Shown piece after piece: positions 18,703-60,686 of a DNA stretch of 64,000 nucleotides. Both the position numbers and the translations under genes were made by a program. The notes under the pieces are model-generated. The model had not been told where the DNA came from and did not search any database. It was given only the letters and a program-made list of their open reading frames with translations. Source of the DNA: an uncultured Pelagibacteraceae bacterium (GTDB lineage Bacteria; Pseudomonadota; Alphaproteobacteria; Pelagibacterales; Pelagibacteraceae). Within the stretch, counting starts at the first letter, position 1; the number at the start of each line of letters is the position of its first letter. Location: contig CACNJC010000002.1 in assembly GCA_902620585.1 (NCBI GenBank), positions 45,927-109,926 of the forward strand. The letters run 5' to 3'.

Positions 18703-18766
18703 AGTTCAATTTAAATGATTCGTTGAGCAAACTTAAGACTCTTATTAGTTGTGTGTGGATAATGAT

Positions 18767-59804: not shown

Positions 59805-60479
59805 ATGCCAAAAAAGAAAAAAACAAAAAAAACAAAAATTCTTAAAAAAACAAAAAAAATCAAATCAAAAAGTAAAATTAAATTAGAGCCAAAAGTTATT
59901 GATAAAAAGACCTCTAGCCCGTCAGGAGAAGAAAAACCAGAAATTAAAAAAGTCAAAAAACAACCAACTGAAAAACGTATTTATAATTCTAAAGACTATG
60001 TAGTTTATCCAAAGCATGGTGTTGGAAAAATTACATCTATCGATAAGGCATCAATTGGTGGAATTGAAATTCAATTTTATAAGATTTTTATTGAAAAAGA
60101 AAAATTAACTTTAACTGTCCCTATTAATCAACAGTCGAAGTTAAGACACATATCTTCAATTAATCAAATTAATAAATGTATTTCTATTTTAAAGACCAAG
60201 CCAAAAATCAAAAGAACTATGTGGAGTAGACGGGCACAAGAATATGACCAAAAGATTAACTCTGGTAAAATTTATGAGCTGGCAGAAGTTGTTAAAGATT
60301 TAAATAAAAACACTGATATTATCGCAGATCAATCATACTCTGAAAGACAACTTTTCGAAAAAGCTTATGAAAGACTCAAATCTGAATTTGAGGCAGTTTT
60401 AAAAGTTAGTCCTGAAGACGTGCAAAAAAAAATGGACAAGGCATTGGGAAGAGTGCAAATATCTGAAACTTCAGTATAA
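59805..60479 (+). CDS. CarD-family RNA polymerase-binding transcription regulator
   Basis: A 224-residue regulator. Residues 1-60 are a Lys-rich basic tail; the RNA-polymerase-interacting domain starts at DYVVYPKHGVGKITSID (about residue 65); the C-terminal helical domain contains YELAEVVKDL and YERLKSEF. CarD proteins stabilise open promoter complexes, including at rRNA promoters. The N-terminal Lys-rich extension exceeds that of usual alphaproteobacterial CarD. Last gene of the helicase-TerB-fdxA-carD unit. Confidence 0.93.
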   Translation: MPKKKKTKKTKILKKTKKIKSKSKIKLEPKVIDKKTSSPSGEEKPEIKKVKKQPTEKRIYNSKDYVVYPKHGVGKITSIDKASIGGIEIQFYKIFIEKEKLTLTVPINQQSKLRHISSINQINKCISILKTKPKIKRTMWSRRAQEYDQKINSGKIYELAEVVKDLNKNTDIIADQSYSERQLFEKAYERLKSEFEAVLKVSPEDVQKKMDKALGRVQISETSV

Positions 60480-60480
60480 A

Positions 60481-60523
60481 AAAACGCCCTTTTTAAAAAA
60501 TAATTAATTAAAAAGGGCGTTTG
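60481..60523 (-). terminator. Intrinsic terminator between carD and the Lys/Arg microprotein
   Basis: A long stem (AAACGCCCTTTTT with AAAAAGGGCGTTT) around a 14-base AT loop. On the minus strand it is followed by a run of seven T, so it ends the 23-residue gene; on the plus strand the T-tract is poor, but it sits right after the carD stop and may serve both. Confidence 0.8.
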
Positions 60524-60536
60524 TAAAAAAGCGAAA

Positions 60537-60608
60537 CTATCTTCTTCTTCTTCTTCTTCTTTTTGCTTTTTTAGCTTTTTTAGCTTTTTTTCTTCTACGT
60601 TTAGCCAT
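60537..60608 (-). CDS. 23-residue Lys/Arg-rich microprotein
   Basis: ATG at 60608, stop TAG at 60537. The protein is MAKRRRKKAKKAKKAK followed by seven Arg; 19 of 23 residues are Lys or Arg. It has its own expression signals: a Shine-Dalgarno AAGGGAG five to six bases before the ATG, a TTGACA -35 element upstream, a hairpin in the leader and an intrinsic terminator right after the stop. This composition suggests binding to rRNA or DNA (ribosomal or nucleoid-like). No named family is recognised. Seven consecutive AGA codons are striking. Confidence 0.7.
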   Translation of the reverse strand: MAKRRRKKAKKAKKAKRRRRRRR

Positions 60609-60619
60609 CTTATTCTCCC

Positions 60620-60686
60620 TTGTTTAAACAAATCTTAATGATTCGTTTGTTTAATTAATCATTAGTTAATTTAAGATTCATGTCAA
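60620..60686 (-). promoter_or_regulatory. Promoter and leader inverted repeat of the 23-residue gene
   Basis: Minus-strand TTGACA (60686-60681), 16-base spacer, TAATGA (60664-60659) as a possible -10. In the leader, a 9-base inverted repeat (TTAAACAAA / TTTGTTTAA, 60624-60654) and a perfect 12-base palindrome TTGTTTAAACAA (60620-60631) lie just before the Shine-Dalgarno, where a structure could control translation. The rest of the gap to the acyl-CoA synthetase (60687-60816) is AT-rich with nothing evident. Confidence 0.5.

Follow-up and report, generated by a model that had tools for sequence, protein, structure and literature searches.

Can a frame of only 23 codons, dominated by lysine and arginine, be a gene in its own right, and if so, what would its product do? 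The question is raised by a stretch of 64,000 nucleotides from an uncultured Pelagibacteraceae bacterium (contig CACNJC010000002.1; hereafter the window), where an earlier note had pointed to a complete expression unit on the minus strand. SAR11 are the most abundant bacteria of the ocean, and their genomes are a model case of streamlining taken to the extreme; a tiny gene that is retained in every lineage examined is therefore likely to be important. At the same time, the short form of the gene falls below the length usually accepted by gene callers. Here, we report that this frame is a genuine gene found throughout the order Pelagibacterales, usually of 21–38 codons. A sigma70-type promoter of its own, a leader that forms a hairpin, and a strong ribosome-binding site precede the coding region, and a terminator follows it (Table 1).

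Table 1. The small gene, its signals, and its convergent neighbor (positions in the window)
Feature	Position	Strand	Basis or comment
-35 box TTGACA	60681..60686	-	sequence reading; TTGAC in 123/123 loci with enough sequence
-10-like hexamer TAATGA, 16-nt spacer	60659..60664	-	sequence inspection; inferred, weak match
5'-terminal leader hairpin AAACGAATC-ATTAA-GATTTGTTT, 9-bp stem	60626..60648	-	CGAATCA at 60639-60645 invariant
12-base palindrome TTGTTTAAACAA between leader hairpin and Shine-Dalgarno (SD)	60620..60631		sequence reading
SD AAGGGAG, 6 nt 5' of ATG	60615..60621	-	SD in 133/133 homologues
Polycation ORF, 23 aa, MAKRRRKKAKKAKKAKRRRRRRR	60537..60608	-	133 homologues, 61 distinct peptides
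Terminator hairpin common to small gene and carD (bidirectional), between the convergent stops	60482..60522		dG -19.0
carD, convergent neighbor and syntenic anchor, outside the unit	59805..60479	+	Pfam CarD_TRCF_RID + CarD_C

An order-wide gene with its own expression signals

Direct reading of the window places the start ATG at 60608-60606 and the stop TAG at 60539-60537 on the minus strand, as the earlier note had it, and the C-terminal end of the peptide is indeed encoded by seven AGA codons. Its count of 19 basic residues needs correction: Lys and Arg make up 18 of the 23, the remainder being Met1 and four Ala, i.e., the peptide is not strictly Lys/Arg-only. With a K/R fraction of 0.78 it is nevertheless an extreme outlier, both against the runner-up among the 324 ATG ORFs of 15–60 aa in the window (0.43) and against the maximum reached across 30 order-3 Markov simulations of the window (0.59). 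Together with the order-wide conservation of the signals, this upholds the view that it is not a random frame. A search of the window's own genome by DNA and by pattern returned no second copy; the copy number is one.

The SD, the TTGACA box, the palindrome, the leader inverted repeat, and the minus-strand terminator that had been claimed are all present in the window. The TTGAC box lies 39–42 nt 5' of an invariant CGAATCA in all 123 loci with enough sequence, and the -10-like hexamer reads TAATGT, TAAAAA, or TAATCA in relatives. The SD of the homologues is mostly GGGAG, spaced 5–6 nt from the start. Within the window's genus, some members alone have the 12-base palindrome in perfect form, and the rest show a TTGTT..AACAA inverted repeat; the palindrome is probably of minor importance. 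The terminator hairpin, flanked by T runs and detected as a 41-nt inverted-repeat self match, begins 14 nt past the ORF, and a hairpin of dG <= -8 is found between the two stops in 129/133 loci. A leader or stalling peptide for a downstream gene is ruled out, because the terminator follows immediately and the next gene, carD, is convergent.

Homologues were located with carD as the syntenic anchor. In the Pelagibacteraceae set, 74 of 80 carD loci bear the ORF on the opposite strand, about 50–65 nt past the carD stop; in the six loci without it (L020, L032, L041, L061, L075, and L081) the contig edge comes within 88–129 nt. Whole-genome searches contributed further genera and a second family, and among the resulting 139 Pelagibacterales carD loci the convergent small ORF is found in 133 (a few genomes contribute two overlapping loci each, so that independent genomes are slightly fewer), the remaining six stopping at contig edges. 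Among the 133 homologues there are 84 distinct coding sequences, which encode 61 distinct peptides. The convergent site beside carD is constant even where the other neighbor is a tRNA-binding-domain protein instead of an acyl-CoA ligase. Elsewhere in the Alphaproteobacteria, 26 carD loci of other families were inspected, and such a gene adjoins none of them. A strict DNA pattern, MAKRR(R)KKAK, matched 61/297 genomes of the order, which is a lower bound since it misses variants such as MPKKRKKAAKK; its reversed-pattern controls gave 0, and among 385 genomes of the class it had no match outside the family. The claim of a complete expression unit is thus borne out, with start, SD, promoter, leader, and terminator kept order-wide.

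In two loci (L085 and L086, clade g2) an in-frame upstream ATG would extend the protein by MLQTLKGGTE ahead of MAKRRKKAK; this ATG, which overlaps the hairpin of the leader, is unlikely to be the true start. Our survey of the open-access literature returned no SAR11 description of such a protein; some of the longer members may already figure in genome annotations as hypothetical proteins.

Selection on the protein and its length series

To count substitutions, coding sequences of equal length were connected in a minimum spanning tree. Among 71 single-base codon differences, 42 are synonymous, 26 exchange Lys and Arg, and three are of any other kind, i.e., 68/71 leave the basic pattern as it is. 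When the same base changes were placed at random sites, the mean number of other-or-stop changes was 35.3 and the minimum in 2000 replicates was 26. Indels among the homologues alter the length by whole codons. This bias and the whole-codon indels show that the frame is translated and selected as a K/R/A polycation; judged from the codon changes, it is the K/R/A-only polycation itself that purifying selection preserves.

Across the order the protein, made almost only of Lys, Arg, and Ala, ranges from 21 to 91 aa: 21–25 aa in the window's genus (including HIMB058 and L012), 21–35 aa in the HTCC1062-like sister genus, 31–58 aa in the HIMB114/IMCC9063/LD12-like genera (e.g., MAKKRKKAAKKKVAKKPAKRKVAKKKPAAKKRKPAAKKKAPAKKRKPAKKKTAKKRKR), and 76–91 aa in a sister family (e.g., MEELKVIFAKARKKAKKKAAPKKRKKAAKRKPAKKKKAAP..., with an additional MEELKVIFAKA N terminus). 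The longer forms contain 50% Lys, 26% Ala, 9% Arg, and 7% Pro and carry KKAAP repeats (e.g., MAKKRKKAAKKKVAKKPAKRKVAKKKPAAKK... and MEELKVIFAKARKKAKKKAAPKKRKKAAKRKPAKKK...), whereas the peptides of the window's clade have no Pro and the 23-mer holds Lys, Arg, and Ala besides Met1. In the carD tree the long-form family branches as the sister group of all lineages with short forms, and the window's clade and its relatives have the shortest proteins. Because the gene is absent from every outgroup, erosion of a long ancestor and expansion of a short one are both possible. No Pfam or NCBIfam model, H1-like or ribosomal ones included, matches the short or the long forms (please note that the bias filters of HMMER penalize such low-complexity sequences), and a PDB search with the long form matched no chain, with a tool that likewise penalizes low complexity.

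The CarD protein of SAR11 (59805-60479, plus strand, in the window; also in L117, L121, L131, L136, and L140) has a long Lys-rich N-terminal extension before its RID domain. In L140 this extension carries VVKKKAAPKK repeats, much like the KKKAAPKK of the convergent small protein of the same genome. A membrane-active toxin or antimicrobial peptide is unlikely, as the short forms have no hydrophobic residues.

The leader hairpin

Each of the 127 loci whose leader is complete (127/127) has CGAATCA, and its spacing from the -35 box is constant; transcription from the predicted promoter would thus place the motif among the first few bases of the RNA. The sequence 3' of it always pairs with the motif as a hairpin, kept or re-drawn in every genus. 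The partner is GATTTGT in the window's clade (with a G-U pair) and GATTCGT or GATTCGC in the HTCC1062-like clade (where this pair is G-C and one double change turns A-U into G-C); the sister family has the stem GAATCAC/GTGATTC, and the HIMB114/IMCC9063/LD12-like genera have a re-drawn one, ATCACTTAAA/TTTAAGTGAT or ATCACATAAT/ATTATGTGAT. The leader hairpin is real, and its pairing persists across genera. Compared with shuffled sequences, 18 of the 24 leaders chosen as representatives fold better at p < 0.02; for the window's clade the advantage is only marginal (p 0.05–0.13). The covariation count within the first two clades (g1 and g3 leaders) was not significant (173/500 shuffles), because most positions of the 5' arm never vary. 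A covariance model built from these two clades, too clade-specific for the others, found the leader site as the sole strong match in the window's genome, G011, G013, and G090 (E 1e-5 to 1e-4), the next competitors in those genomes being at chance level. Rfam at the gathering threshold returned three tRNAs only in the window, the leader matching no known RNA family, and the element is absent from the discussion in the text of a SAR11 structured-RNA survey (PMC2704228).

We also considered a palindromic DNA operator, ACGAATCA..TGATTCGT, as the conserved element. It is disfavored: the right half is lost in the clades with a re-drawn stem (g2, g4, and g5) while the hairpin potential is kept, and this loss favors a role at the RNA level. 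The sole other ACGAATCA in the window (18716-18723, minus strand) lies about 40 bases downstream of a tRNA-Ser gene; about one is expected by chance.

The earlier note had suggested autoregulation through the leader hairpin, which seems possible in a lineage-dependent manner according to the folding models. The SD is predicted to be open in the window's clade (0.97 unpaired) and in g4, hidden in g2 and g5 (in g5 via CTCC..GGAG), and intermediate in g3 and the sister family. In the genus of L125, L129, L131, and L133 an anti-SD CTCC stands about 10 nt before GGAG and predicts sequestration, with an SD unpaired probability of 0.01–0.03 in the three folded leaders. The long-form leaders of the sister family (L135–L141) have a second element, CCTCTAACTAAACCC..GGG, beside the SD; L137 and L138 show a compensatory change there, with CGC/GCG in place of CCC/GGG. 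Most likely, the 5' hairpin would act on the RNA, by stabilizing or regulating a short and abundant message. Few regulators are known in this organism, and the invariant hairpin is a candidate RNA element.

A putative nucleic-acid-binding polycation and its rivals

We lean towards reading the product as an order-specific, protamine- or H1-tail-like nucleic-acid-binding polycation, made from an mRNA with a 5'-terminal hairpin. It would be a minimal, disordered protein, the protamine-like counterpart of an H1-like Lys/Ala/Pro tail, neutralizing phosphate charge on the chromosome (less likely on rRNA) and helping nucleoid compaction in very small cells alongside HU-type proteins. The latter were found in all nine genomes tested, with 2–3 matches each, so the polycation would be an additional nucleoid component. 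Composition alone would be compatible with DNA, rRNA, or another polyanion as the target. The ribosome- or nucleoid-associated role proposed in the earlier note is partly supported: such putative binding would agree with the composition and with the longer orthologues of sister clades, which at 34–58 aa and at 76–91 aa still resemble H1 tails.

AlgP and Hc2 are H1-like proteins with a K/A/P-type tail composition that bind DNA (PMC9239181, PMC2848022). The H1-like proteins (AlgP/AlgR3 and PhaF of Pseudomonas, Hc1/Hc2 of Chlamydia, and BpH1 of Bordetella) share strong basicity with the SAR11 product and, with its longer forms, a low-complexity K/A/P(R/T) tail and length variation based on repeats; intrinsic disorder would be common to them too. 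Their tails, however, end or constitute proteins of about 165–350 aa, whereas the SAR11 product consists of nothing but tail, with 21–58 aa in one of the families, and the version in the window's clade has no Pro and finishes with a run of Arg; the likeness is compositional rather than demonstrated homology, and it may be convergence. ScvA of Coxiella burnetii, a gammaproteobacterial DNA-binding protein of about 30 aa tied to the small-cell variant, resembles the SAR11 peptide in size and basic charge and is among the few known bacterial nucleic-acid-binding proteins so small; it is Arg/Gln/Pro-rich, and neither synteny nor alignable sequence with the SAR11 peptide is expected. Protamines, the eukaryotic sperm proteins that condense DNA, are very short, near-pure polycations with Arg runs, like the SAR11 peptide by composition only.

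H1-tail-like nucleic-acid-binding proteins are already known, but we know of no free-standing, order-wide form of 21–25 residues made of K/R/A only. It is conceivable, and we put it forward tentatively, that Pelagibacterales replaced an H1-like protein with, or stripped it to, a naked 21–25-residue K/R/A "bacterial protamine" with a dedicated transcript and an invariant 5' RNA hairpin. If true, no smaller nucleoid protein shared by a whole order would be known. A polycation of this size would offer a minimal test of what bacterial chromosome compaction requires, and the graded lengths from 91 to 21 aa within one order are a natural experiment on H1-tail function.

The main rival is ribosome binding, i.e., a basic microprotein like bTHX, bL36, or Sra that binds rRNA and stabilizes or tunes the ribosome. 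We regard it as rather unlikely, even though the K/R-only composition, the strong RBS, and the small size are typical of the smallest ribosomal proteins and the gene is retained order-wide in streamlined genomes. bTHX, bL36, and bS22/Sra are tiny and very basic as well, but they have a fixed length, and the Cys/His zinc site of bL36 and the Gly/Tyr/Trp of bTHX are absent from the SAR11 protein. A ribosomal protein fills a defined rRNA pocket, whereas here the length varies more than fourfold (21–91 aa) by repeat-like expansion, the longer forms bear H1-tail KKAAP repeats, and the gene stands outside any ribosomal operon.

A partnership with CarD, in which the basic peptide would act with CarD or RNA polymerase in transcription, is weaker and in our judgment improbable. 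The invariant convergent position beside carD, where the other neighbor changes, would fit it, and so would the Lys-rich tails of CarD and the KKKAAPKK repeats common to both proteins in one sister-family genome. Convergent genes, however, are not co-transcribed, synteny is often passive in streamlined genomes, and some other alphaproteobacteria without the small gene also have Lys-rich CarD tails.

Quite doubtful, too, is a regulatory RNA, either an sRNA or a dual-function RNA, with the conserved CGAATCA hairpin as the active part. Such a reading could draw on the invariance of the motif and its fixed distance from the promoter, on the compact hairpin–ORF–terminator transcript, and on the uniqueness of the element per genome in the modeled clades; the strong protein-level selection, the synonymous drift, and the conserved SD and start stand against it, and coding is therefore at least one function of the transcript.

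Lastly, the frame could be open by chance, as an artifact of the A/G-rich antisense strand where the carD terminator lies; the low complexity and a second, likewise open minus-strand frame of 88 aa might suggest so. This reading is refuted to a negligible residue by the substitution test, by the Markov simulations that fall short of the observed composition, and by the frame, start, SD, promoter, and terminator kept across two families.
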